DNA from: Bacteroidota bacterium
Lineage (GTDB): Bacteria > Bacteroidota > Bacteroidia > B-17B0 > Aurantibacillaceae
Assembly: GCA_029237825.1 (NCBI GenBank)
Contig: JAQZBQ010000007.1
Span: 62,001 to 126,000, forward strand
DNA length: 64,000 nt
Reading direction: 5' to 3'
In this document: piece after piece, positions 12,385 through 35,554 of the stretch
How positions within the stretch are numbered: position 1 is the stretch's first letter
Layout: each line of letters opens with the position of its first letter
The notes under the pieces: generated by a model
What the model was told of the DNA's origin: nothing
What the model saw: the letters and a program-made list of their open reading frames with translations, nothing else
Databases searched by the model: none
Position numbers and translations under genes: made by a program

Positions 12385-12978
12385 ATGGAAATTGACCGGG
12401 AGCTATTATTAAGCTGGGGAGCGGTAATAAAAAAATTCATGAAAAACGAAATTATTTTTCATGAAGGCGATTACCCACGGTTTTATTACCAGATACTGGA
12501 TGGGACTGTTAAGATGTACAATACAAACGTAGACGGAAAAGAATTTACACAATCTGAATTCAAAGCGGGAAGAAGCTTCGGAGAGCCGCCACTGTTTATT
12601 GAGGAAGCCTATCCCTCAACGGCAGTTGCTTGCCAGGATACGGTTATTATAAAATTACAAAAGGAAAAGTTCCTTGAGCTACTTGATAAAAACCCGGCAC
12701 TTTTAAAAAAGATGCTTTCCCTTTTTGCGAAGCGCATCTATAGTAAATCCAAGACCGCCAGGGAAATAATCAATAATACACCTGAAATAAGGATCATGGG
12801 GTTTTTAAACGACTATAAGAAAAAAAACAACCGTGAAAACGAAAAAATTGAGATTCCTTATACGCGCCAGGAAATTGCTAATTATATTGGCCTAAGAGTA
12901 GAAACGGTTATCCGTACCTTATCTAAAATGAAATCAAAAAAATTAGTACAGATTATTGAACGCAAACTGATCTATTAA
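12385..12978 (+). CDS. Crp/Fnr-family transcription regulator
   Basis: 197 residues from ATG 12385. Residues about 15-115 form a cyclic-nucleotide-type beta-barrel (F-H-E-G-D-Y-P-R-F-Y-Y-Q-I-L-D-G-T-V-K). Residues about 150-195 form the winged helix, with T-R-Q-E-I-A-N-Y-I-G-L-R-V-E-T-V-I-R-T-L-S. The E..R pair of the recognition helix suits TGA-type half sites, as in FNR. There is no N-terminal cysteine cluster, so oxygen sensing by a [4Fe-4S] cluster is unlikely; haem or NO sensing as in DNR/NnrR is possible. Its promoter carries the palindrome at 12294. The stop codon overlaps the start of the next gene (TAATG). Confidence 0.88.
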   Translation: MEIDRELLLSWGAVIKKFMKNEIIFHEGDYPRFYYQILDGTVKMYNTNVDGKEFTQSEFKAGRSFGEPPLFIEEAYPSTAVACQDTVIIKLQKEKFLELLDKNPALLKKMLSLFAKRIYSKSKTAREIINNTPEIRIMGFLNDYKKKNNRENEKIEIPYTRQEIANYIGLRVETVIRTLSKMKSKKLVQIIERKLIY

Positions 12979-14204
12979 TGGTGGCCTTTCGAACAAACTT
13001 TTGGTTAAAATTTTCACTGGTTAATTTATTACTTGTAGCAACTCTGGGTGTGCTGATGCGCTATAAAATAGGATTTGATTTTCCTTTCTTTAGCCAGAAA
13101 CACATTCAGCATGCTCACTCCCATTTTGCATTTTCGGGCTGGGTAACACACAGTTTGTATGTGCTGATGATTGCTTTCCTGACCAAAAAAATCCCTTCGC
13201 TTTCAACCCAAAATTATACGCGCATCATTCTAGTAAACTTAGTGTGTTCCTATGGAATGCTGATCTCATTTTTCATTTTTGGATACAACGCGTCGTCCAT
13301 TTTCTTCTCCACATTAACCATTGTAATAGCGTGTTTCTTTGCTTACTCCTTTTTCCAGGATCTGCAAAAGATGGATTCACTCGATCCATCACGCCCTTGG
13401 TTTAAAGCGGCGTTATGGTTTAACATCGTTTCCTGCCTGGGCACATTTTACCTTGCCTACATGATGGCATCCCGAAACTTTAACGAACACTGGTATTTAG
13501 CATCTATTTATTATTACCTTCATTTTCAGTATAACGGGTTTTTCATTTTCGCGTGTTTCGGTTTACTAATTAGCCAATGCGCACATTTTCTTCCCATGTT
13601 TAAGTATGACCGAACCGTGTTCACATTGAGCTTTGTCTCAGTAATTCCCGCTTATTTTTTGTCCGTACTATGGGCCGACTTACCCCTCTGGTTAAACATC
13701 GCTGTTGCAATTGCTGCATTCATGCAGTTGTATGCCTGGATCAAATTTATCTGGGCCATTAAACGCGCTGCAAACTTAGGATCTACCCTAACTACATTTC
13801 AACGAAATATGTTCATATTTGTGAGCCTTGCATTCTCTATTAAACTGTTATTGCAACTTGGGTCCACAATTCCTGCATTAAGCGATCTGGCATTTGGATT
13901 CAGACCAATTGTAATTGCCTACCTGCATTTGGTTTTACTTGCCGTGATTTCGGTGTTTATTCTTACCTATTTCTACACCTTTGGTTTTCTTCACGTCAAT
14001 AAACTCGCACAACAGGCATTGACTCTATTTGTAGTTGGTGTTTTCCTAAACGAATTGGTACTGGCCGTGCAGGGTATAGCCGCATTCGGATATGTTCCCG
14101 TGAAATTCGCAAATGAAATTCTGTTTGCCGCAGCACTGATTCTATTAATAGGGGCGGGTTTAATGGTAATTGCCCAGCGAAAAAAAATCGTTGAATCTGA
14201 ATAA
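12978..14204 (+). CDS. Polytopic membrane protein with conserved histidines (NnrS/haem-copper-like)
   Basis: 408 residues with about 12 hydrophobic segments. Histidines lie at the ends of helices: H-I-Q-H-A-H-S-H-F-A-F-S-G-W-V-T-H (about residues 40-56), F-N-E-H-W-Y, Y-Y-Y-L-H-F-Q-Y-N-G, C-A-H-F-L-P-M-F and A-Y-L-H-L-V-L-L. The A-H-x-H-x-x-x-x-G-W pattern recalls NnrS and haem-copper oxidase subunit I. Both families are tied to haem, copper and nitric oxide. It starts on the last base of the crp-like stop, so the regulator and membrane protein are co-translated. No redox partner is encoded beside it. Function inferred from context only. Confidence 0.6.
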   Translation: MVAFRTNFWLKFSLVNLLLVATLGVLMRYKIGFDFPFFSQKHIQHAHSHFAFSGWVTHSLYVLMIAFLTKKIPSLSTQNYTRIILVNLVCSYGMLISFFIFGYNASSIFFSTLTIVIACFFAYSFFQDLQKMDSLDPSRPWFKAALWFNIVSCLGTFYLAYMMASRNFNEHWYLASIYYYLHFQYNGFFIFACFGLLISQCAHFLPMFKYDRTVFTLSFVSVIPAYFLSVLWADLPLWLNIAVAIAAFMQLYAWIKFIWAIKRAANLGSTLTTFQRNMFIFVSLAFSIKLLLQLGSTIPALSDLAFGFRPIVIAYLHLVLLAVISVFILTYFYTFGFLHVNKLAQQALTLFVVGVFLNELVLAVQGIAAFGYVPVKFANEILFAAALILLIGAGLMVIAQRKKIVESE

Positions 14205-14232: not shown

Positions 14233-14922
14233 CTAATTTCTTACTACAACTTTTAGTTTAGTGCTTAAGGCAGACGCGTTGAATTGCGCCCGTTCTGAAT
14301 TTTCCAGTTTAGTAAGCGTTTCCGTATCATTCATGTAATGTTGTATGAAATAAGAGCCGGTGTAATTCAAGTTTTCCAGCACATGAACCATTTCCTGAAG
14401 GTCTTTTGAATCAAGAAGGGAGGAATGGAAAGTCGTCCGTACTTCAAAAGGGAGATGGCAATGAGTAAGCAGGTTAAGGCTTGAGGTAAAATCTTTGTAT
14501 AAATCGGAATGGGTGATGTTTTGAAATTTTGCTTTCGGCGCCTTAAAGTCCAATGCCACATAATCGATTAAATCCTCATTAATTACGTGCTTTAGGAAAT
14601 CAGGGTTAGACCCATTGGTATCTATCTTAACCAACAATCCCAGTTTCTTTATTTCAATTATAAAATCAATTAAGTTTTTATGCATCGTACATTCGCCTCC
14701 GCTTAATACAACGCCATCAAGGAGTTTCATACGCGATCTTAAAAATGTTAATGCTTCCTCAAAGCGAATTTTCCCTTTACCTAATACAATACTGGGATTA
14801 TAGCAATACAGGCACCTCATATTACAGCCTGCAAACCAAAGGATGCAGGCTGTCTTGTCGGGGTAATCCAACAGTGTAAATGGCGAGATGCTGTAAATAG
14901 GTTTAGCTACACCTGCTTTCAT
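14233..14922 (-). CDS. nrdG: Anaerobic ribonucleotide reductase activating enzyme (radical SAM)
   Basis: Generates the glycyl radical on class III ribonucleotide reductase using S-adenosylmethionine and a [4Fe-4S] cluster. 229 residues. Cluster motif C-N-M-R-C-L-Y-C (C33, C37, C40) with N-P-S following, then L-S-G-G-E-C, the SAM-binding G-G-E. It begins S-P-F-T-L-L-D-Y-P-D-K, which is typical of the NrdG subgroup annotated as anaerobic RNR activator. The gene overlaps the 3' end of the small glycyl-radical ORF by 20 bases, which in turn overlaps nrdD, so all three are translationally linked. Confidence 0.92.
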   Translation of the reverse strand: MKAGVAKPIYSISPFTLLDYPDKTACILWFAGCNMRCLYCYNPSIVLGKGKIRFEEALTFLRSRMKLLDGVVLSGGECTMHKNLIDFIIEIKKLGLLVKIDTNGSNPDFLKHVINEDLIDYVALDFKAPKAKFQNITHSDLYKDFTSSLNLLTHCHLPFEVRTTFHSSLLDSKDLQEMVHVLENLNYTGSYFIQHYMNDTETLTKLENSERAQFNASALSTKLKVVVRN

Positions 14923-15073
14923 TAAACTGGGTTCGTTGTTTGTGTTCTCCTTTTTTTCCGATATTAAAGCTTTCTACCGGCCTGTGATATCCCATAACGC
15001 GGGTATATACGAGGCATTTTGTGCGTTGAGAACTATGCGTCTGCAACAACTGAGTTTTGATTTGTGTGTTCAT
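14903..15073 (-). CDS. Separate glycyl-radical domain of class III ribonucleotide reductase
   Basis: 56 residues from ATG 15073, stop 14903-14905. The sequence has T-K-C-L-V-Y-T-R-V-M-G-Y-H-R-P-V-E-S-F-N, then I-G-K-K-G-E-H. This is the C-terminal glycyl-radical motif of NrdD (consensus R-V-x-G-Y-x-R-P-V-x-x-x-N-x-G-K-x-x-E), with the radical glycine at residue 28. The large NrdD protein stops without this motif. The ORF is in the +1 frame relative to nrdD, overlaps its 3' end by 41 bases and overlaps nrdG by 20 bases. It is either a true split subunit, like the GrcA/YfiD spare part of pyruvate formate-lyase, or the product of a frameshift. Confidence 0.82.
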   Translation of the reverse strand: MNTQIKTQLLQTHSSQRTKCLVYTRVMGYHRPVESFNIGKKGEHKQRTQFNESRCS

Positions 15074-17177
15074 ATGGTATATAATTAAGGGTTAATTTTT
15101 CTAATAAATGCTCATCGCAGTGTGGGCAGTATTCATGCTCACCTGAAAGGTACCCGTGTGTGGGACAGATGCTGAATACCGGCGTTACAGTGATGTATGG
15201 GAGCCTGAAATTGGACAACACCTTTTTTACCAGATTGCGACAGGCCTCTGCTGAACTTAGTTTTTCACGCATATAAAGGTGTAAAACAGTACCTCCAGTG
15301 TATTTGCATTGAAGTTCGTCCTGCAATAACAAGGCTTCAAAAGGATCATCCGTATGGTTTACCGGAACCTGTGAACTGTTGGTGTAGTATATATTCTCAT
15401 CATTCCCTGCCTGTATGATGTCGGGAAAGCGCTTCCTGTCCTCTTTTGCGAACCTGTATGTTGTGCCTTCTGCTGGAGTAGCTTCCAGGTTGTAAAGGTT
15501 ACCGGTTTCTTCCTGATACCGCTTCATCTTCTCGCGGATGTGTTCGAGTATTTTACCGGCGAACTCAATACCTGAATCTGTTGTGATATTATCCTTCTGA
15601 TTTGTAAAGTTTAAAATCATTTCATTGATACCATTTACACCTATTGTAGAAAAGTGATTTCGGAAATGCTTTAGGTACCTTTTTGTGTAAGGGTACAATC
15701 CTCTGTCGTACATTTCCTGAATAAATACCCGCTTTTTTTCAAGTGTAGATTTTGACACCTCCAGCAGGAAATCTAACCGCTGATAAAGCGCCTCAAGGTT
15801 GCCCCTGTATAAATAACCTAGTCGCGCCATATTAATCGTAACAACTCCTATGCTCCCGGTCATTTCAGCACTTCCAAATAAGCCATTCCCCCTTTTCAGT
15901 AATTCTCGTAAATCCAACTGTAACCTGCAGCACATACTCCGAACAGCATTTGGTTTATAGGCCTTTTCATTTTCTATACGGTTACCGTTTTCATCCAGTA
16001 TATACTGACTACCAATAAAATTCTGAAAATAAGAGGAACCGATCTTCGCTGTATTTTCAAACAAAAGATCTGTGTTTTCACCGTACCAGTCGAAGTCTTC
16101 AGTAATATTAACTGTAGGAATTGGAAATGTAAACGGTTGGCTTCCCGAATCGCCTTCCGTCATTACGGTGTAATACGCCTTATTGATCATATCCATCTCT
16201 TCCTGGAAATGTTCATACCGTAAATCCACCAGAGAGTCCACGCCTCTGCTCTTGGCGCGCTCTAATAAACCGGTATCATTCACATTCTTGAATAAATGGT
16301 GATCATACGTTGTAGGAATTTGCTCTTTTAAGTCGGAAGGAACTACCCAATCAAGCGTAATGTTGGTAAAAGGAGATTGCCCCCATCGGGCCGGAACATT
16401 TAAATTGTATACAAAACTTCTGACAGCTTTCAGCACGTCATCAAAACCCAGTTTGTCTTTAAAAACATAGGGCGCAAGGTAAGTGTCGAATGAACTAAAG
16501 GCCTGAGCGCCCGCCCATTCACTTTGCAGAATGCCAAGAAAATTAGCCATCTGTCCTAGCGCTTCCCGGAAATGGGAGGGCGCTTTACTCTCCACACGTC
16601 CTCTTATACCGTTAAATCCTTCGTTTAACAAAGCCCTCAAACTCCAACCTGCACAATATCCTGTTAAGCAATCCAAATCATGAATGTGAATATCGCCATT
16701 GCGATGGGTTGCGCCCTCTTCTGGCGAATAGACTTTATCCAACCAGTAATTGGCAATGATCTTTCCTGCGACATTATTTACTAAACCTGCATTCGAATAT
16801 GCTGTATTGGCATTAGCATTGATCCTCCAATCCGTCTGTCCAATGTATTCTTCAATTGTTTGAGTACTGTTTACGTAAGTGGTGTGTGCATCGACATCTC
16901 TAACAGATTCACGCTGCAACTTTCGGGTATGGCGATATAACATGAAAGAGCGCATGACATCAAAATGCTTTCTATCATATAACTTCTTTTCAATACAGTC
17001 CTGTATTTCTTCTACGCCCCATGTATCCTTGCTCTTTAAATTCAGAACAACTTCATTAAAAACTTCATCATCCATCGGCTGATTTACACTTTCAAATCCT
17101 TTAATGATTGCTTCCTGAATTTTGAAAAGTTCGAGTGGCTTGTATTCACCGTTTCGTTTGATTACATATTTTTCCAT
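15033..17177 (-). CDS. nrdD: Anaerobic (class III) ribonucleoside-triphosphate reductase, large part
   Basis: Reduces ribonucleoside triphosphates to deoxyribonucleotides without oxygen. 714 residues. N-terminal ATP-cone (V-I-K-R-N-G-E-Y-K-P-L-E-L-F-K-I, residues about 4-95), then the 10-strand catalytic barrel with G-D-I-H-I-H-D-L-D, R-W-G-Q-S-P-F-T-N-I-T-L-D, G-N-G-L-F-G-S-A-E-M-T-G-S-I-G and G-V-N-G-I-N-E. The C-terminal zinc site is I-C-P-T-H-G-Y-L-S-G-E-H-E-Y-C-P-H-C. After this the chain ends in 27 residues without the glycyl-radical motif, which is encoded by the overlapping ORF at 14903-15073. Confidence 0.93.
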   Translation of the reverse strand: MEKYVIKRNGEYKPLELFKIQEAIIKGFESVNQPMDDEVFNEVVLNLKSKDTWGVEEIQDCIEKKLYDRKHFDVMRSFMLYRHTRKLQRESVRDVDAHTTYVNSTQTIEEYIGQTDWRINANANTAYSNAGLVNNVAGKIIANYWLDKVYSPEEGATHRNGDIHIHDLDCLTGYCAGWSLRALLNEGFNGIRGRVESKAPSHFREALGQMANFLGILQSEWAGAQAFSSFDTYLAPYVFKDKLGFDDVLKAVRSFVYNLNVPARWGQSPFTNITLDWVVPSDLKEQIPTTYDHHLFKNVNDTGLLERAKSRGVDSLVDLRYEHFQEEMDMINKAYYTVMTEGDSGSQPFTFPIPTVNITEDFDWYGENTDLLFENTAKIGSSYFQNFIGSQYILDENGNRIENEKAYKPNAVRSMCCRLQLDLRELLKRGNGLFGSAEMTGSIGVVTINMARLGYLYRGNLEALYQRLDFLLEVSKSTLEKKRVFIQEMYDRGLYPYTKRYLKHFRNHFSTIGVNGINEMILNFTNQKDNITTDSGIEFAGKILEHIREKMKRYQEETGNLYNLEATPAEGTTYRFAKEDRKRFPDIIQAGNDENIYYTNSSQVPVNHTDDPFEALLLQDELQCKYTGGTVLHLYMREKLSSAEACRNLVKKVLSNFRLPYITVTPVFSICPTHGYLSGEHEYCPHCDEHLLEKLTLNYIPYEHTNQNSVVADA

Positions 17178-21062: not shown

Positions 21063-22379
21063 TTATACGTTTGATGTTGATGCCGAAGTGCTTTTAAGCA
21101 AGACGATTCCCAAAGTACCAAGTGTTAAAAGAAGGCCTATGCCTGCGAGTCCGAACGTTACGAAATATGGGGCTAAAGAATCCATCATCTTTGAATAACT
21201 TTCCTGATGCGCGCTCAATTGCCATATTCCTTTTTTCACACCCGCCAGGTTTAATGACGTCCAGAAAATAACAAGGCTGATCTGCAGTGCCCAAAAAATT
21301 TTGTTTAAGTATTTAGATTTTTCTTCTATATTGAAAAACGTGAAACAGGCAGCCAATAAAATCATAGTATTAATGCCTATCGTTGTTCCCATTGCATGGG
21401 CAACAGTGATATGCGTTCCGTGTGTGTACATGTTAATAGCTGGAATGGACATGAGAATGGCTTGTCCCATATTGATGAATATCCAGATATCGGCTGCCAT
21501 GATAAACCGGTAAGGAAAATAATGGTAGTTACGTTGAACAATACTTAAACTCGCTCTCCAGGTCATCACGATCTTCACAAAAAAGACCCACTCTGTCATA
21601 CTAACGGCGTAACCAATATATCGGATATACGGTTCAGTAGGCAATGTATATATGTGATGGCCCCAGTTAAACATAAGGTTAAATAACCCTAGGAAGTATA
21701 ACCCGAATGCCAATTTACTACTCCCGGTGCTTTTATTATTTAAAATCCGATCCATTAAAAAAATAGCGGTTCCATAAATGATCTGGTTCCATGAACCGAC
21801 AAGTGAACCATTTACTTTCCATTGGATCGTCATATCGGTGATAAAATGCTCCCGGAAATACGGGATTAACCACAAATAGTTTTCCAAAAATGTAAAAAGG
21901 AAAAAGACTACACCTGTCAACCACATCCAGATATAAACAGGCCATGTACTAATTTTTTTTACCAATCGGTAAAAATTTATCAAAAATAAAACCCACGCAG
22001 TTGAGATGGGTAAGGCCCAAATGGGATTAAATTCCCAATACTCCCGTCCTCCAAAATCTTTTATACAATAAGATACCATTATACCAATAATAGAAATGAC
22101 CCATAAAACCCATTGAATCAACCCCGTTCGTTTGATGCGTTTATCGGTACTTCCTTGTTCGAGCACACAATAAATACAGCCTGTAGCACCAAGTATAATC
22201 CAGAACATGGCAGCACTTACATGCATTGGCCTTAAGGAAATAAAGCCCAGATTATCTTTAAGAAAATCAGGAAAAATATAGATTGATGCAGATACTACTC
22301 CGAACACTAAGGCCAATAACAACATGCAAATTGCAGTAGTCAAAAACACTTTTCCGATATGTAACCCAGAAATTCTCAT
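21063..22379 (-). CDS. norB: Nitric oxide reductase large subunit, atypical ligands
   Basis: Membrane subunit that reduces two NO to N2O. 438 residues, about 12 helices. Conserved: M-H-V-S-A-A-M-F-W (H53, low-spin haem), N-W-G-H-H-I-Y-T (H241, H242, non-haem iron), S-M-T-E-W (E263) and T-H-G-T-H-I-T-V-A-H (H328, high-spin haem). Departures from cNorB: by gapless comparison the third iron ligand and nearby glutamate of H-x-x-x-E are N190 and V194 (V-N-G-S-L-V-G-S-W), and the second low-spin haem ligand appears as M330 (A-H-A-M-G). It may belong to one of the non-classical NOR families. It overlaps norC by four bases (ATGA). Confidence 0.85.
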   Translation of the reverse strand: MRISGLHIGKVFLTTAICMLLLALVFGVVSASIYIFPDFLKDNLGFISLRPMHVSAAMFWIILGATGCIYCVLEQGSTDKRIKRTGLIQWVLWVISIIGIMVSYCIKDFGGREYWEFNPIWALPISTAWVLFLINFYRLVKKISTWPVYIWMWLTGVVFFLFTFLENYLWLIPYFREHFITDMTIQWKVNGSLVGSWNQIIYGTAIFLMDRILNNKSTGSSKLAFGLYFLGLFNLMFNWGHHIYTLPTEPYIRYIGYAVSMTEWVFFVKIVMTWRASLSIVQRNYHYFPYRFIMAADIWIFINMGQAILMSIPAINMYTHGTHITVAHAMGTTIGINTMILLAACFTFFNIEEKSKYLNKIFWALQISLVIFWTSLNLAGVKKGIWQLSAHQESYSKMMDSLAPYFVTFGLAGIGLLLTLGTLGIVLLKSTSASTSNV

Positions 22380-22885: not shown

Positions 22886-24697
22886 TTAGGACTGCAAGAA
22901 GGGTTGTTTGGGAATTGGTAAAATGTCCAGAGATCTTCTCAACTCTTTTAACTGAATTTCAAAATTATGGCGCATCCCACCATATTTCATCTTTAAGAAC
23001 AGTCCCTCATAATACTCAATTCCCTTTAATAAGTTACTTTTGAATAATTCAAAGTGGGAAATCTTTTTTGTATTGAGCTCAATAAATTTGTCTTCAAGTT
23101 CCTTTTTTAGATAATCAATATAAAGATGTAATTCGTTAATAAAAATGTTAGGACGAATTAGTCCGTTCAAAATGTCCAGCCGTCCATAAATATGATCAAC
23201 CATTTGCTTTAGTGAAAATGTCCCGGTGAAATAAGCGAGGTTGGGTCCTGGGCAAATTGTTACCGCACTTAATTTATGAGAGAGCTTTGCATTATTTTTA
23301 AGAAGCGCAGAAGCACCAAGACCTTCACATAAACAATCTTTTTCAGTAACCCGTGCTATTTCATAATCCAATCGCTCCTGACTTTGAATAGTTGATTTCA
23401 ACTGATCAATTTTCATTTTCTGATACTCACGTGACGCTGTACAAATAGGTTTAGCAGTAAATTCTTTATCCATTGATAAAAAACCTTTATAACAGGGGCT
23501 TCCCGGCCGACCTTTGGTGATTCTGTTCTTGCGCTGCTCTTCCGATGAGCTGGTACGAAGATTGCTAAAAGGCACTCCTAACGGCGACGCATGACTTAAG
23601 TAATAATCTTCCTTTCGTGCTGCGATAAGTTTTTCAAGTGTATCTCTATCCACATTCGTTGCTTCCGGAACCAATAAAAATGGACTCCCCCACCCGGTTG
23701 CGTCCAACTGGTAATAATCTCTCAGGAAATCATTTTCTTCGCTGGTTCCAATTCCGCCTTGCGCCGATATTTTAATATCTGGCTCATAAAGAAAAGGTAA
23801 TCTTCCTGCTTGATGTAATCCATCTTTGCATTCCGTAAACAACTGTTCGTATAACTCGTTGCGCTTGAGTTTAAACTCTTCGAGAATGGGTCCCATTGGA
23901 ATACCATTTGAAATAAAGGCATGCCCACCGCAATTTATTCCGGATTCAATTCTGAACTCTGAAATCCACAACCCTTTCTTGGCAAGGTATTTTCCTTGTA
24001 TTAAGGCAGAGCGATAATCACTCACCTTTAAAATAATCTTCTTCTTTATATATCCGGTTGAATCTGGAAAAAAATCGGTAAACGATTCACAATATGAGAA
24101 AAGTCGAGGATTAAGGCCGGCAGAAAATACTATGGATGAATCCAAATCACTATGAGCAAAGCCACGCAAGGCTGATAACGCATCAGAATACTCCACAGGA
24201 AGTTCATTTCCATCATGATCATAATTGATTTTGTCAAGCTTGGTCATTATGTTAACATCAATCCTTCCAGCAGTAATCTTATTTCTTAAAATATTTTCAT
24301 ACTCCAAACGTGTTTCGCCTTCGCTAACCAGCATTAAATGATACATCTTTCGGAGAGCAGAATTATCAGGCAACATTTCAAAATACTGCCGGATATTCAA
24401 TCCACGGTCAAAATCTTCTGCTTTCAGGGCTTTAACTTTCTTTGCTACGACCGAAGAAAGCAGATTAAGATACGCCGTAATCCTCCTTGCGCGAAAATCG
24501 GGCTCAGAAAGATCAATCCGATGGTATGCCAGCGATTCGTTATTACAAATTACTTCCCGCATTTGTTCTATCAGGTGATCTTCAATAATCGATACAACTG
24601 AGTCAATCCCATACGGGGCTACCTTCAAAGGAGTATCAATTGTGTAAGCTAAACCCATGACAGGAATATGAAAGGTATGAGGCCGTTGGTGTTCCAT
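22886..24697 (-). CDS. Nitronate-monooxygenase-like flavoprotein, function unknown
   Basis: 603 residues, soluble. It opens I-P-V-M-G-L-A-Y-T-I-D-T-P like an FMN barrel. Residues 251-260 (E-S-G-I-N-C-G-G-H-A) resemble the A-G-G-H motif of nitronate monooxygenases, and 311-320 (S-A-Q-G-G-I-G-T-S-E), followed by G-W-G-S-P-F-L-L-V-P-E-A, resemble the FMN-phosphate site of that family. It is nearly twice the usual length. It has extra N- and C-terminal regions and cysteines at 402, 419, 455 and 457 that could bind a cluster. It lies 90 bases upstream of norC, same strand, and has its own promoter with the rrf2-type element. Context suggests a role in nitrogen-oxide stress; substrate unknown. Confidence 0.6.
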   Translation of the reverse strand: MEHQRPHTFHIPVMGLAYTIDTPLKVAPYGIDSVVSIIEDHLIEQMREVICNNESLAYHRIDLSEPDFRARRITAYLNLLSSVVAKKVKALKAEDFDRGLNIRQYFEMLPDNSALRKMYHLMLVSEGETRLEYENILRNKITAGRIDVNIMTKLDKINYDHDGNELPVEYSDALSALRGFAHSDLDSSIVFSAGLNPRLFSYCESFTDFFPDSTGYIKKKIILKVSDYRSALIQGKYLAKKGLWISEFRIESGINCGGHAFISNGIPMGPILEEFKLKRNELYEQLFTECKDGLHQAGRLPFLYEPDIKISAQGGIGTSEENDFLRDYYQLDATGWGSPFLLVPEATNVDRDTLEKLIAARKEDYYLSHASPLGVPFSNLRTSSSEEQRKNRITKGRPGSPCYKGFLSMDKEFTAKPICTASREYQKMKIDQLKSTIQSQERLDYEIARVTEKDCLCEGLGASALLKNNAKLSHKLSAVTICPGPNLAYFTGTFSLKQMVDHIYGRLDILNGLIRPNIFINELHLYIDYLKKELEDKFIELNTKKISHFELFKSNLLKGIEYYEGLFLKMKYGGMRHNFEIQLKELRRSLDILPIPKQPFLQS

Positions 24698-30532: not shown

Positions 30533-31239
30533 TGCTTCTGTTCCTTTAATATTTTCGCTATTGCTTTTGAAATTCGTTCTTCGCCAGTTGTTAATTTCAA
30601 ATCTTCCACCGTTTTATGAAATTTAACCGTTCCGTCCTGCATAAAAATTATCTGGGTGATCAGATCATCCAGTTCACTTAATAAATGAGATGTTATTAAT
30701 ATTAGCTTACCCTTCTTCTTTTCAAGTATAATTTTTTCTTTGAGAAGTTCTGAGGCTAGTGGATCCAGTCCTGCTGTAGGCTCATCCAGAATAAGTACAT
30801 CCGGATTAAACAAAAAGGCTAGGATAGCGCTTACTTTCTGGGTTGTACCACCCGAGAGCGTGCTCATGCGCTTATTTATTAAATTTTTCAAATCAAAAGC
30901 CTGCATCAGATCTTCATCCAGGAAGGAATCTGATTTTCTGATCTCTTTCACCATTTCTATAATCTGGCCAATCGTCATATTATCCGGATAACGCCCTATC
31001 TGTGGCATGTATCCAATGTGATTGCGATAGGCATGATTAGTGGTAATAAAATTTCCCTGGAATTTAATTGTCCCTCCTGTTGGAATAACCATTCCCAGAA
31101 TACTTTTGATCAGAGTTGTTTTACCACAACCATTGGGACCAATAAGAGCAATGCATTCTCCTTTGTTGCAGGTTAAATGCACATTATTTAAAACTTTAAG
31201 TTTGCCAAAATTTTTTGACAACGCATTGATCTCTATCAT
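30529..31239 (-). CDS. nosF: NosF, ABC ATPase for nitrous oxide reductase maturation
   Basis: 236 residues. Walker A G-P-N-G-C-G-K-T-T, signature L-S-G-G-T-T-Q-K-V-S, Walker B V-L-I-L-D-E-P-T-A-G-L-D-P and switch S-H in I-T-S-H-L. It pairs with NosY. Its ATG overlaps the nosD stop (four bases), its end overlaps nosY. Confidence 0.93.
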   Translation of the reverse strand: MIEINALSKNFGKLKVLNNVHLTCNKGECIALIGPNGCGKTTLIKSILGMVIPTGGTIKFQGNFITTNHAYRNHIGYMPQIGRYPDNMTIGQIIEMVKEIRKSDSFLDEDLMQAFDLKNLINKRMSTLSGGTTQKVSAILAFLFNPDVLILDEPTAGLDPLASELLKEKIILEKKKGKLILITSHLLSELDDLITQIIFMQDGTVKFHKTVEDLKLTTGEERISKAIAKILKEQKQ

Positions 31240-32471
31240 AACTTAAGTGAATGCATTAAGGGCGTATTATCTACAAAATTATCAGGGGTAAGGCTCGGAA
31301 TGATCTTTTCAGATTTATCTAATAGCGTCACCATAAAGCTTCTGAACAATAGCATCGCCGGCGGATTATTTTCTACAATTACTGAAAACAAACTCAGCGG
31401 ATGATAAGGCACGTCGCCAATCTTATCACGGTTTAAATCATAGCCTTCATATTTATCCCAGTAGTTTTTATTGAAGGTGTTTAACACAAGGCTACCATTT
31501 GTACTAATATCAAAGGTGTTACCTATGAAGTTATTAGACACCACTTCATTTTCCATGCAACTTGCCTGAATTTTCATTCCCCATCCATTCGCTGAAAAAA
31601 TATTCCGCTCCACTTTAATTCGGCTCGTCCCTTCCATGTGAATTCCTTCCGTGTTTTTCGTGAATTTGTTTCCATAAATATAACTATCAGAAATCTCTTT
31701 CAAAAACAATCCATATGCAGCATCGCCCCAGTTTTCAGTAAAGGAATTGTTATACATTTTTACCTTTTGTGTAAACATCACGGCAACTCCTGCTCCGTTG
31801 TTTTTAAAAACATTAGAAATGTATGCATCATTATTTGAAAACATAAAGTGCAGGCCATAGCGGATATTGCCTTTAGAAATGTTTCTCCAGATGATCGAAT
31901 TGGTGACAAACTCAAAATAAATGCCGTCGCGATGTCCCGTGATGGTGTTCCCTGTTATTTGGAGGCTATCATTTTTCCAGCAATGGATCCCGTTACCAAT
32001 TTGTTGTTCCTCCACTCCGTAGGCAGTGATGCGGTTATTTTTTATAATACAGTTCGAACAATGCTGGAGGTATATAGCGAAAAAATTATCGTCCAATATG
32101 TTATTAGCAATCGTAACGTTCCTCGAATTAAACACCTTTATTCCGCCCGGATCTTCGAGTGTTGCGAACCCCGAACGTTGAACTTTAAACCCGGACACAG
32201 TGACATACGAGGCCTTAATAGAAAGGATTTCGAATTTCTTTTGCCCGTCGAGCACCGGAAAATTTACACCTAGCAAGGTTATTTCCTTATCTATAATAAT
32301 ATTGCCCTCCTTGTAAATTCCCTCAAATACTACAATAGTATCGCCATTAGCCGATTGAGACAGAGCAGCCTTAATTAACTTAACAGATTTTGTCGCGCCG
32401 ACTTCAATTGTTCTTCCAGGCACTAAATGACTGCAGAAGCAAAATAATGCTATTAAAAGGACCGCTTTCAC
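31236..32471 (-). CDS. nosD: NosD, periplasmic copper-site maturation protein
   Basis: 411 residues. A signal peptide (V-L-L-I-A-L-F-C-F-C-S-H) precedes a right-handed parallel beta-helix built of repeats such as N-N-I-L-D-D-N-F-F-A-I-Y-L-Q, N-C-I-I-K-N-N-R-I and W-R-N-I-S-K-G-N-I-R-Y-G-L-H-F-M-F-S-N-N-D split over coils, typical of NosD. The start codon is GTG; its first base is the last base of the nosL stop. It acts with NosF and NosY in CuZ assembly. Confidence 0.92.
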   Translation of the reverse strand: MKAVLLIALFCFCSHLVPGRTIEVGATKSVKLIKAALSQSANGDTIVVFEGIYKEGNIIIDKEITLLGVNFPVLDGQKKFEILSIKASYVTVSGFKVQRSGFATLEDPGGIKVFNSRNVTIANNILDDNFFAIYLQHCSNCIIKNNRITAYGVEEQQIGNGIHCWKNDSLQITGNTITGHRDGIYFEFVTNSIIWRNISKGNIRYGLHFMFSNNDAYISNVFKNNGAGVAVMFTQKVKMYNNSFTENWGDAAYGLFLKEISDSYIYGNKFTKNTEGIHMEGTSRIKVERNIFSANGWGMKIQASCMENEVVSNNFIGNTFDISTNGSLVLNTFNKNYWDKYEGYDLNRDKIGDVPYHPLSLFSVIVENNPPAMLLFRSFMVTLLDKSEKIIPSLTPDNFVDNTPLMHSLKL

Positions 32472-33496
32472 TATTTACTAATATTACTCCAGCTGGTATA
32501 CTCCGCGGCGAAATCTATCGCATAGGTTTGTGAACTTTCCTTATTGGAAAAAGCTGCAATGTTTCCTCCCATCGGACTTTTCACGTTTTCTCCCATAATG
32601 TATACGGCGGTTTCAGCAGCAATTAATGAATTATCACCAAGGAAATCAGCAACATAATAACTTGCCCCATCTGCTTTTTCAGCATTATCAGCTTTATAAT
32701 TGATCATGCACGAGATATCATCAAATTTATACGCACGACCTTTCTTAGTAAATAATTCGGCTGCGAATTTCGGGTTGGCAATCGTCATCCCGCAATTGTC
32801 ACAGTGATCCGAATTAAGTTTGATCGGCTCAGGTTTAGTAACATCACAGGAAGTCAATCCCATTAAAAAGAAAGGCAAAAGAGCAAGGTTCACGTTTGTA
32901 TTCAATTTCATTTTTCTATGTTTTTTATATTCTAAAAATACAGCAAGCGACATTAATATCCCACTTGCCACAAATAGCCATCCACCAATATCCGGTATGG
33001 AATAGGCTCCAAAATTTAAAAGTTGTTTAAACCCAATAAGCGGTGGCTGATAAGCCATACCCGGAACAATGATCGCTGCGTTAGGGTCAAGGTTGTGGCC
33101 GTAATTATATTCCCAACGCCAGAAATCCACCATGGCCACAATACCAAATAAAATAAACGCTCCTAATAAAGCATACAAGGCCTTTCTCTGATTGATAATG
33201 ACAACAAGAAGGCAGGCAAACGCATAAGCACTGATGATGTAAGGCAGAACGGTAAATTCAACAAACTCATCAGCATGCAGGGTTTTCATACCAATGTAAT
33301 GGTTCAAGCCATTGATAATATCTACCTGACCGCCCATCTTGTTCGCATGAATAGTTAATGCCAATCCTTCAGGATACTGGGGCGCGTCTAACTCTATTCT
33401 CCATATCGGGTAAAACAGGGAAATAACAAGGAAGCTGCCTGCTATAAAAAGCAGAATCTTTGAAATTACCCCGAGTTTTTTTTCATTTGTATCCAT
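32471..33496 (-). CDS. nosL: NosL fused to an N-terminal membrane domain
   Basis: 341 residues. The first 190 residues are a membrane domain with about five helices and a periplasmic loop W-R-I-E-L-D-A-P-Q-Y-P-E-G-L. The C-terminal part is NosL, the copper chaperone for NosZ, with D-H-C-D-N-C-G-M-T-I as copper site. NosL has its own lipoprotein-like signal inside the fusion: M196 followed by a hydrophobic stretch ending G-L-T-S-C. An internal start at 32911 could therefore give free lipoprotein NosL as well. It follows nosZ after a hairpin at 33518. Confidence 0.88.
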   Translation of the reverse strand: MDTNEKKLGVISKILLFIAGSFLVISLFYPIWRIELDAPQYPEGLALTIHANKMGGQVDIINGLNHYIGMKTLHADEFVEFTVLPYIISAYAFACLLVVIINQRKALYALLGAFILFGIVAMVDFWRWEYNYGHNLDPNAAIIVPGMAYQPPLIGFKQLLNFGAYSIPDIGGWLFVASGILMSLAVFLEYKKHRKMKLNTNVNLALLPFFLMGLTSCDVTKPEPIKLNSDHCDNCGMTIANPKFAAELFTKKGRAYKFDDISCMINYKADNAEKADGASYYVADFLGDNSLIAAETAVYIMGENVKSPMGGNIAAFSNKESSQTYAIDFAAEYTSWSNISK

Positions 33497-33568: not shown

Positions 33569-35554
33569 TTATTTCGTAGCAGCTACTTCCGGTTTGGTAA
33601 CACCTGTACCAAATTTAAGAGGCACATTGCTTCCTGCCGGAGATACCCTTAGGTATCCTGTCATTTCCTGGTGTAATGCACTGCAAAAATCTGTACAGTA
33701 GAATGGAGCTATTCCAACTTTTGTAGGAGTCCATTTTAAAGTTTGTGTCTCTCCGGGCATAACCAGCAACTCAGCGTTATCAGCACCTTTAATGGCAAAT
33801 CCGTGTGGTACATCCCAGTCCTGTTCAATGTTAGTCACGTGGAAATACACTTCATCACCCATTTTTATTCCTTCAATGTTGTCTGGTGTTAAATGTGAAC
33901 GGATAGCAGTCATGTAAACATGTACTTTGTTTCCTTCTCTCACGATTTTAGCTTCCTTTTCACCCTTCGCAACATATGGATGTTTATTTTCTTCGATTTT
34001 AAAGAGTTTCAAAGATTTATCCTTAACAACACTCGCTAAACAAGCCTGTGCATAGTGCGGCTCGCCAATCGTTGGGAAATCCAGGATCAGTTTCATTTTA
34101 TCGCCACTGATATCAAATAATTGCGCACTCTGAGACAACTCCGGACCTGTTGGCAAATAACGGTCTTTTGTAATTTTATTATAAGCAATTAAATATTTTC
34201 CGGTTGGATTTTTTGTATCGCCACCTGCTACACATAAGTGACCAATTGAATAATAAGTAGGTTGTCTGTCGAGTACTTTTAAATCCTTGATGTTCCATTT
34301 AACCACTTCAGAAGAAACAAACATGGAAGTATACGCATTCCCGTTGGCGTCAAACTCTGTATGCAAAGGCCCTAATCCTGGCTTCTTCACTTCACCGTAC
34401 AGTGCAGACTCATATTTAATTACAGGGATCCCATCAAATTCGCCATCAAAACTTTTTGCAGCAATTGCTTTAGTCATTTTATCAAAACTAAATACAGGAA
34501 TTACAGAAGCTAATTTACCACTGGCAACAATGTATTCACCCGTTGGTGATACGTCGCATCCATGAGGAGACTTAGGACATGGAATGAAAAAACAAATGTC
34601 TTTCAATTCTTTAGAATCCAATACAATAACTTCAGTTTTGATTTCGGAAGTAGCTGTGTGCGTTTCTTCACTGTATGTATTGTGAGCGTATTTTACAGCC
34701 TGTTTTTTGCCTTTACCAGCCTTCAGGTACTCTTCCGCTTTTTTCCAGTTCACCGCCATCACAAAATCCTTATCACGCTGAGATGCATTTACTTCTAATA
34801 AAGTATTTGCTTGCTCTGTGTTATAGCAGGAGAAGAAGAACCATCCGTTTGAAACACCTTTTCCGGCACGGCTTAGGTCAAAATTCACACCAGGACACTG
34901 GATCTGGAATGCTATATCCATTTTACCATCTTCTTTACCAACGCTTATGAAACTTAATGTACCTTTAAAGTTTTCTTTGTAGGTATCAATAGCAACATCT
35001 CCGTTCGCATCATCCATTGGAACACTGAAACGGGTACCCGCAACCACATACTCAGTATTTTCTGTAATGAATGGCGATGAGTGGTTACCGCCACTGTTCG
35101 GAATTTCAATGATCTCCTGTGTACGGAATGTCTCTAAATTAATCCGGGCAACCCGTGGTGTGTTATTGGCATTACCAAACACCCATTTTCCGTCGTACTC
35201 TCCATTTGTTTTTGATAATTGTACGTGGTGCAAATCGTCCCATGGAACCATACCATGAGAGGTGTTAAGCATTGGTTTTGTTTCTTCACTGTAGCCCCAT
35301 CCTTTTTCAGGGTCTACAGAAAACACTGGAATTACACGCAATAACCGTCCGGACGGTAAGCCATAAACGCTCATTTGTCCGCTAAACCCGCCGCTCACAA
35401 AGTTGTACATTTCATCGTACTTACCCGGTGCAACATAAGCTTTACTTGCTGCATCACCGCCTACAGCATTACCTGTATCCTTAGGTTTACAGGATTGAAA
35501 CGAAGCAGCAGCAACTAATCCGGTTATCGCTGTAATTTTTAATAAATTTTTCAT
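33569..35554 (-). CDS. nosZ: Nitrous oxide reductase, clade II
   Basis: Periplasmic copper enzyme that reduces N2O to N2. 661 residues. The signal is a Sec-type, lipoprotein-like peptide ending F-Q-S-C, without a twin arginine, as in clade II (atypical) NosZ. CuZ-binding histidines are visible in D-D-L-H-H-V-Q-L-S, G-G-N-H-S-S, S-P-H-G-C-D, L-H-T-E-F-D and E-P-H-Y. The C-terminal cupredoxin has the CuA set C620, C624, H628 and M631 (C-T-D-F-C-S-A-L-H-Q-E-M). Second gene of the nos operon, 17 bases after the cytochrome c gene. Confidence 0.97.
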   Translation of the reverse strand: MKNLLKITAITGLVAAASFQSCKPKDTGNAVGGDAASKAYVAPGKYDEMYNFVSGGFSGQMSVYGLPSGRLLRVIPVFSVDPEKGWGYSEETKPMLNTSHGMVPWDDLHHVQLSKTNGEYDGKWVFGNANNTPRVARINLETFRTQEIIEIPNSGGNHSSPFITENTEYVVAGTRFSVPMDDANGDVAIDTYKENFKGTLSFISVGKEDGKMDIAFQIQCPGVNFDLSRAGKGVSNGWFFFSCYNTEQANTLLEVNASQRDKDFVMAVNWKKAEEYLKAGKGKKQAVKYAHNTYSEETHTATSEIKTEVIVLDSKELKDICFFIPCPKSPHGCDVSPTGEYIVASGKLASVIPVFSFDKMTKAIAAKSFDGEFDGIPVIKYESALYGEVKKPGLGPLHTEFDANGNAYTSMFVSSEVVKWNIKDLKVLDRQPTYYSIGHLCVAGGDTKNPTGKYLIAYNKITKDRYLPTGPELSQSAQLFDISGDKMKLILDFPTIGEPHYAQACLASVVKDKSLKLFKIEENKHPYVAKGEKEAKIVREGNKVHVYMTAIRSHLTPDNIEGIKMGDEVYFHVTNIEQDWDVPHGFAIKGADNAELLVMPGETQTLKWTPTKVGIAPFYCTDFCSALHQEMTGYLRVSPAGSNVPLKFGTGVTKPEVAATK

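Follow-up and report, generated by a model that had tools for sequence, protein, structure and literature searches.

An anaerobic (class III) ribonucleotide reductase (RNR) made of two separately encoded polypeptides, the smaller of which would bear the radical, is proposed here for a member of the Bacteroidota. The stretch of DNA analyzed, called the window, is 64,000 nt long (positions 62,001-126,000 of contig JAQZBQ010000007.1, assembly GCA_029237825.1, Bacteroidota bacterium, Aurantibacillaceae) and contains an nrdD core gene, a small open reading frame (ORF) with the glycyl-radical domain (GRD), and the activase gene nrdG (Table 1). To the reading that these genes encode a class III RNR of the MCCR type, built of two separate polypeptides with the small one radical-bearing, we assign a probability of roughly 0.88.

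The nrdD core stops 27 residues past C-P-H-C, and the motifs T-R-V-M-G-Y-H-R-P-V and F-N-I-G-K-K-G-E are both found in the 56-aa ORF, whose frame is open for six codons upstream of its own ATG and is overlapped by the start of nrdG by 20 nt. The Pfam model PF13597 (NRDD, 562 positions) matches the core over profile positions 2-530 with 534.6 bits, above the cut-off, and the small ORF over positions 531-562 (E 5.9e-7, 29.0 bits against a cut-off of 26.2), so that the two pieces jointly cover the NRDD model once. The ATP-cone model PF03477 matches core residues 3-86 (61.6 bits, above cut-off), PRK08270 matches the core with 1073.4 bits, and ATP-cone and NRDD are the only Pfam matches of the two proteins at E <= 0.001. 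The genome has one core, one small piece, and no complete NrdD. An earlier note on this DNA had claimed that nrdD lacks its glycyl-radical motif and ends 27 residues after C-P-H-C, which the ORF reading and the Pfam split bear out, and had placed the motif in a +1-frame ORF of 56 residues with its own ATG at 15073 and overlaps of 41 and 20 nt, coordinates that are all right.

Table 1 Positions of the proposed two-piece reductase genes, their key residues and nearby denitrification genes in the window
Feature	Positions	Strand	Remarks
nrdD core (class III/anaerobic RNR catalytic chain; ATP-cone, barrel and zinc site)	15033-17177	-	714 aa, without glycyl-radical motif
Putative separate glycyl-radical subunit (GRD)	14903-15073	-	56 aa, starts at its own ATG, +1 frame with respect to nrdD
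Predicted radical glycine codon, Gly28 of the small protein (R-V-M-G-Y)	14990-14992	-	invariant in 39/39 aligned small proteins
Overlap of core end and small-ORF start, 41 nt	15033-15073	-	from the sequence
nrdG, radical-SAM activase, NrdG2 type	14233-14922	-	TIGR02495 195.5 bits, above cut-off; adjacent gene
Predicted zinc site, located on the core: C671, H674, C684, C687	15117-15167	-	invariant in 22/22 aligned cores
MCCR double-cysteine finger-loop motif, Met415-Arg418	15924-15935	-	invariant in 22/22 aligned cores
nosZ	33569-35554		in window, near nrdD
nosD	31236-32471		in window, near nrdD
nosL	32471-33496		in window, near nrdD
COX1-family gene, NorB-like by our reading	21063-22379		in window, near nrdD

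Judged by its motifs, the window enzyme is most likely a class III RNR of the MCCR (NrdDh4-like) type. The NRDD core with an ATP-cone, the finger-loop cysteines, the C-terminal zinc site, and the NrdG activase are all present; the exception is the RVxGY motif, which is absent from the core polypeptide and sits in the separate ORF. The double-cysteine finger-loop motif class is described in PMC9669993 and PMC4493059, and the predicted zinc ligands were assigned by analogy with the T. maritima zinc site (PMC4493059). A joint alignment of cores and small proteins misplaced the latter and was set aside. MCCR together with a Phe at the finger-loop tip, the combination that marks NrdDh4, is found in the window and its relatives (AVRSMCCRLQ...GNGLFGSAEMTGS); the tip Phe is our own reading, and for the tip region PMC4493059 itself mentions some uncertainty.

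NrdD is present in three of the 60 genomes of the nearest set (own genome included) and is two-piece in all three. An evenly drawn sample of 392 genomes of the Bacteroidota, again including the window's own, contained 26 NRDD-matching genomes; a spurious partial match (G375) was removed before counting, and the 25 real NrdDs comprise 10 two-piece forms (own included) and 15 one-piece forms, the latter all outside the window's clade. A pattern scan with the window small protein gave 201 confirmed loci, the best 80 of which were kept; found through the small ORF, this set is biased and gives no unbiased rate, which comes instead from the 392-genome sample. In 80/80 of these best loci, a short ORF of its own carries the motif, and 77 of them also hold a core. 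The two-piece layout occurs in isolates and metagenome-assembled genomes (MAGs) of several genera. A 108-aa NRDD fragment near an activase-like ORF (L162) belongs to another NrdD type and was set aside; its genome, G336, additionally encodes a one-piece NrdD that differs from it in type.

The split layout is beyond chance: the family match is above cut-off, the small-ORF ATG and gene order are kept in 77/77 two-gene loci, and other genera are alike. The earlier note had proposed looking in Bacteroidota for the same order of nrdD, small ORF and nrdG, and this order was found in all 77 two-gene loci. Relatives with one continuous nrdD were also sought as counterexamples; the nearest set (3/3) and the core-holding loci (77/77, found through the small ORF) proved to be two-piece throughout.

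The alternative that survives best, improbable as it is, holds that the small protein is mainly a repair part like GrcA and that the core works, or once worked, without it by means of another radical source. GrcA and phage T4 Y06I are precedents for pyruvate formate-lyase (PFL) (PMC8683613), and virus records and one plasmid stretch have a small piece with no core found there. However, the window's own genome offers no complete NrdD for it to repair, no genome in the 392-genome sample combines a small piece with the absence of a core (E <= 0.001), and the activase directly follows the small ORF in 77/77 loci, its match beginning before the small-ORF stop (start extrapolated). GrcA/YfiD of E. 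coli and Y06I are likewise small free-standing radical-glycine proteins that act in trans on a large enzyme, with phage versions too. GrcA accompanies and repairs a complete PFL, whereas the window small protein is the sole NrdD glycyl domain of its genome and matches the NrdD family only (PF13597, E <= 0.001), not the PFL glycine-radical family. The analogy with GrcA/YfiD drawn in the earlier note therefore stands as to a small radical protein acting in trans, but not as to a complete NrdD beside it or the family.

Marginally less probable again is programmed +1 ribosomal frameshifting that fuses both frames into one NrdD chain. The first ATG of the small ORF precedes the core stop by 11-47 nt in 44/77 loci, always in the +1 frame, and this, with the open codons upstream of the window ATG, is what favors a frameshift. 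In the other 33 loci, however, the ATG lies 12-1412 nt past the core stop, in frames 0/1/2 in 16/10/7 cases, and in one locus (L026) a complete 445-aa gene lies between core and small ORF. In viral record G505, the core (80959-82536, + strand) and the GRD match (151615-151722, - strand) are ~69 kb apart, the GRD ORF having 41 codons and AGGAGG before its ATG; in viral record G501, the GRD is ~2 kb downstream of the core with other ORFs intervening. The gaps in any frame, the intervening gene, and the opposite-strand pair rule out programmed frameshifting as the general mechanism. The spacing within the chain argues likewise: joining the window frames gives a linker of 38 residues (counted by eye), compared with 8-13 residues between the final CxxC cysteine and the RxxGY arginine in 15/15 one-piece Bacteroidota NrdDs. 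In two-piece forms, the core tail measures 12-32 residues, and the GRD protein (52-62 aa) has an N-terminal tail as well. The linker argument of the earlier note holds insofar as the joined form is too long, although it had given 40-50 residues, and its claim of a true two-piece enzyme is supported by the relatives, the variable gaps, the L026 gene, and the G505 pair.

That the split is a sequencing or assembly error, or a one-piece nrdD decaying into a pseudogene, has a negligible probability: a one-base change could align both frames, but the same layout is found in isolates, MAGs, several genera, and complete plasmids, conservation of core and small ORF is strong, and a fusion would have a linker of the wrong length. 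Equally slight is the chance of post-translational joining of the chains by trans-splicing or ligation, which inteins in some phage NrdDs (L181, PF14890) would favor and against which the window core and small protein contain no intein domain in Pfam at E <= 0.001.

In a tree of 44 cores, 28 two-piece rows (27 Bacteroidota of several families and one viral) form a single clade with support of 100/99, and its sister group consists of one-piece NrdDs of the same MCCR type. The viral core L121 is two-piece, yet falls outside this clade on a long branch. The two-piece layout also occurs in complete plasmids of Proteobacteria and Campylobacterota. The small protein matched 28 plasmid records, and 10 loci were examined, of which seven are two-piece (Sulfuricurvum, C. 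metallidurans, C. necator H16, Cereibacter, Bradyrhizobium, Thiothrix, and Paracoccus; in the Thiothrix record, the core frame is interrupted, with 321 codons open). The Acidiphilium and Actinomyces loci are one-piece. Plasmid pALVIN01 of Allochromatium vinosum has a GRD-type "nrdD" gene (77079-77288, L177/L178) that adjoins a CHAP-domain gene, with a c-type cytochrome near; no NrdD core is annotated in the 41 kb around it, in a gene table that is incomplete. In a second tree, of 34 cores, the Actinomyces core is nested among two-piece proteobacterial cores and the Acidiphilium core lies beside them, suggesting that joining, or repeated splitting, has happened.

NCBI names the small ORF nrdD in five of the plasmid records examined, e.g., WP_011154154.1 (C. 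necator pHG1) and WP_013449874.1 (Sulfuricurvum). These small ORFs, annotated as "nrdD anaerobic ribonucleoside-triphosphate reductase", share the family and the order core, small ORF, nrdG; the name is annotation only and is silent on a radical subunit of a two-piece enzyme. The C. necator small ORF on pHG1 is 66 codons long. The computed mass of the C. necator core is 76.19 kDa, and Siedow et al. 1999, on C. necator nrdDG, reportedly gave an NrdD of 76.2 kDa. For C. metallidurans, one paper, in the part available, gives nrdD as Rmet_5137 and nrdG as Rmet_5139; the skipped tag Rmet_5138 would fit the small ORF.

A search of IMG/VR with the small protein returned 50 records, which may be fragments. 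The NrdD core is present in two and absent from 48 of them; among the latter, two lack any NRDD match and four exceed 70 kb. A second NRDD match in G083 was removed, as it lies in what we read from the sequence as a transposase-like ORF. A class I/II large subunit is encoded in 1/50 and a radical-SAM gene in 3/50 of these records. Ten of 20 neighboring proteins match PHROG families at E <= 1e-5 (portal, tail, head-tail adaptor, and exonuclease among them), which confirms phage context for some records only. The family phrog_4132 ("unknown function") matches the window small protein with E 1.4e-8; for viral small proteins, the E value falls as low as 3.7e-12. With the core as the starting point, we found 68 viral loci, some near-identical (L180 repeats L099, and L206 repeats L121), comprising 39 one-piece forms, 26 ending after the zinc site, and three without a C-terminus. 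A GRD ORF is located downstream in the locus for 15 of the 26 zinc-ended cores and elsewhere in the record for six more (L194, L218, L220, L221, L233, and L239). A tblastn search of annotated phages with the window small protein gave nothing at E <= 0.01; other small proteins as queries gave the archaeal virus ANMV-1 and weak matches. In ANMV-1 (KP703175.1, 25525-25959, L166), a free-standing 144-aa GRD protein has two CxxC pairs before the motif, and its gene is annotated as anaerobic ribonucleoside triphosphate reductase, yet it encodes the glycyl-radical domain only.

The small protein is predicted to dock in the native place of the GRD. An AlphaFold2 model was made with both pieces joined in silico as one chain and an alignment of 47 rows that included one-piece phage homologs. 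The model has a mean predicted local distance difference test score (pLDDT) of 87.1 and a predicted template modeling score of 0.81; over the GRD, pLDDT is 70 at the N-terminal tail, 84-90 over the motif-bearing residues 711-750, and 80 at the end. VIA-align superposed model residues 79-752 on P. copri NrdD 85-735 (551 residues, root-mean-square deviation [rmsd] 2.7, Z 34.0) and residues 94-754 on T. maritima NrdD 9-647 (528 residues, rmsd 2.9, Z 31.4), where the ranges give the first and last aligned residue only. Several entries, including dATP-bound P. copri 8p27, align with the model only to ~665; the GRD was undetected in dATP-bound P. copri NrdD (PMC11226230). A sequence search of the PDB with the small protein gave nothing at E <= 1.

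Besides the limited meaning of these aligned ranges, several points weigh against the two-piece reading. The placement of the GRD was steered by the joined chain and by the one-piece phage homologs in the alignment; a first AlphaFold2 run, with a shallow alignment lacking one-piece homologs, left the GRD unplaced, with pLDDT of 27-35 in the last blocks. Three S. thermophilus structures gave rmsd values of 12-14 against the model. The one-piece forms of Acidiphilium and Actinomyces, beside or within a two-piece proteobacterial clade, indicate that joining is tolerated and separation not strictly required. For five zinc-ended viral cores, no GRD was found in their records (L181, L182, L214, L226, and L238; L182 is cut by a contig end). 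A minor +1 frameshift product is possible in the window itself. In favor of the two-piece reading, a COX1-family gene accompanies 12/12 two-piece and 4/15 one-piece carriers (Fisher p 1.8e-4), but this association is uncorrected for phylogeny, the 12 two-piece carriers are related, and the COX1 family includes nitric-oxide reductases. Lastly, what is known here of the two-piece enzyme comes from genes and a predicted structure.

In class III RNRs, NrdG generates the glycyl radical, which is then transferred to a finger-loop cysteine. For the two-piece enzyme, we propose that the operon nrdD, small ORF, nrdG would be translated as three proteins with overlapping starts, the 714-aa core carrying the ATP-cone, catalytic barrel and zinc site and the 56-aa subunit the radical glycine. 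NrdG would take a hydrogen from Gly28, the radical would move to the finger-loop Cys, and nucleoside triphosphates would be reduced. Oxygen cleaves glycyl radical enzymes at the glycine that bears the radical; here, such cleavage would destroy the small protein only, so that the enzyme could be restored with a new copy. A replaceable radical subunit would suit denitrifying facultative aerobes. Somewhat short of an even chance, and offered tentatively, is the idea that the radical part is an exchangeable trans subunit, the costly core being kept and the ~6-kDa part replaced after oxygen damage, and that phages bring the part alone, lacking the core and mostly the activase in the records examined, to recharge or take over the host enzyme. 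Because the window's own genome has no complete NrdD, the small protein would above all be a subunit that the enzyme cannot do without, and might in addition serve as a spare part.

Compared with one-piece MCCR/NrdDh4-like NrdDs (Bacteroidota f37, f39, and f56; T. maritima 4COI/4U3E; P. copri 8P23), the ATP-cone, barrel, MCCR loop, zinc site, and glycyl motif are shared; the difference is that the GRD here is a separate gene and protein, and the linker of 8-13 residues gives way to an additional tail on each of the two proteins. NrdJa/NrdJb are not known to contain a glycyl radical. They form the split class II RNR of Pseudomonas aeruginosa, also an RNR from two separately encoded chains (PMC4520616), but of another class (B12) and with another split. 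The available part of PMC4493059 defines NrdDh1-4 and mentions unclassified phage sequences, and a separate glycyl domain was not met there; that of PMC3653736 reports phage nrd genes split by introns and inteins, and unexplained fragmentation in phiAS4. Nor is a separate NrdD GRD described in the available parts of PMC9669993, PMC9531940, PMC4390871, PMC3019208, and PMC3653736, and a literature search, with subscription papers mostly outside it, found no description of a separate NrdD glycyl-radical subunit. The only validated glycyl radical spare parts are YfiD and Y06I, both for PFL, and spare parts for other glycyl radical enzymes are a subject of speculation (PMC8683613).

The two-piece enzyme would be new, while the genes are already annotated. 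If the radical part is indeed exchangeable, class III RNR would become the first glycyl radical enzyme after PFL with a spare-part system. A two-piece NrdD that occurs naturally in organisms also equipped with genes for aerobic respiration would make the spare-part idea directly testable on an essential enzyme. It could also allow the radical subunit to be loaded, labeled or exchanged on its own. The matches to phrog_4132 suggest the function of an NrdD-type glycyl-radical subunit for that family. Across a whole branch of bacteria, the predicted catalytic glycine is encoded apart from what is commonly taken for nrdD.

In the window, the nrdD cluster lies near nos genes and a COX1-family gene (Table 1), and Crp/Fnr and Rrf2 regulators are found in this denitrification region. 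Two further genes there, 12978-14204 (408 aa, apparently a membrane protein) and 22886-24697 (603 aa), match no Pfam or NCBIfam model at the cut-offs applied. In the C. necator record, a nitric-oxide reductase gene is ~1.2 kb upstream, and in Sulfuricurvum, napA is downstream. All 27 NrdD carriers also have a class I/II RNR. In C. necator H16, where nrdD is of the two-piece form, nrdDG is reported to be essential for complete denitrification (PMC2864759), which gives genetic support that the two-piece system works.

Some viral NrdDs have features of their own. The L181 protein contains an intein (PF14890) and an HNH endonuclease, and no glycyl domain was found in its 196-kb record; L214 has the same length and ending. 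Five viral contigs (L124, L127, L128, L131, and L132) have an in-frame TGA where the family has Gly after FN-x, and many long frames open up once TGA is translated as an amino acid (from 0 to 6-7 in L127 and L128), also in L117, suggesting that the phages of those five contigs use UGA for Gly (code 25). An extra C-terminal stretch is present on 24 of the 39 one-piece viral NrdDs (L195-L205, L209-L213, L216, L230, L236, L237, L240, L242, L243, and L245); the three tested all match glutaredoxin or thioredoxin, so that the probable reductant is fused to the reductase in these proteins.

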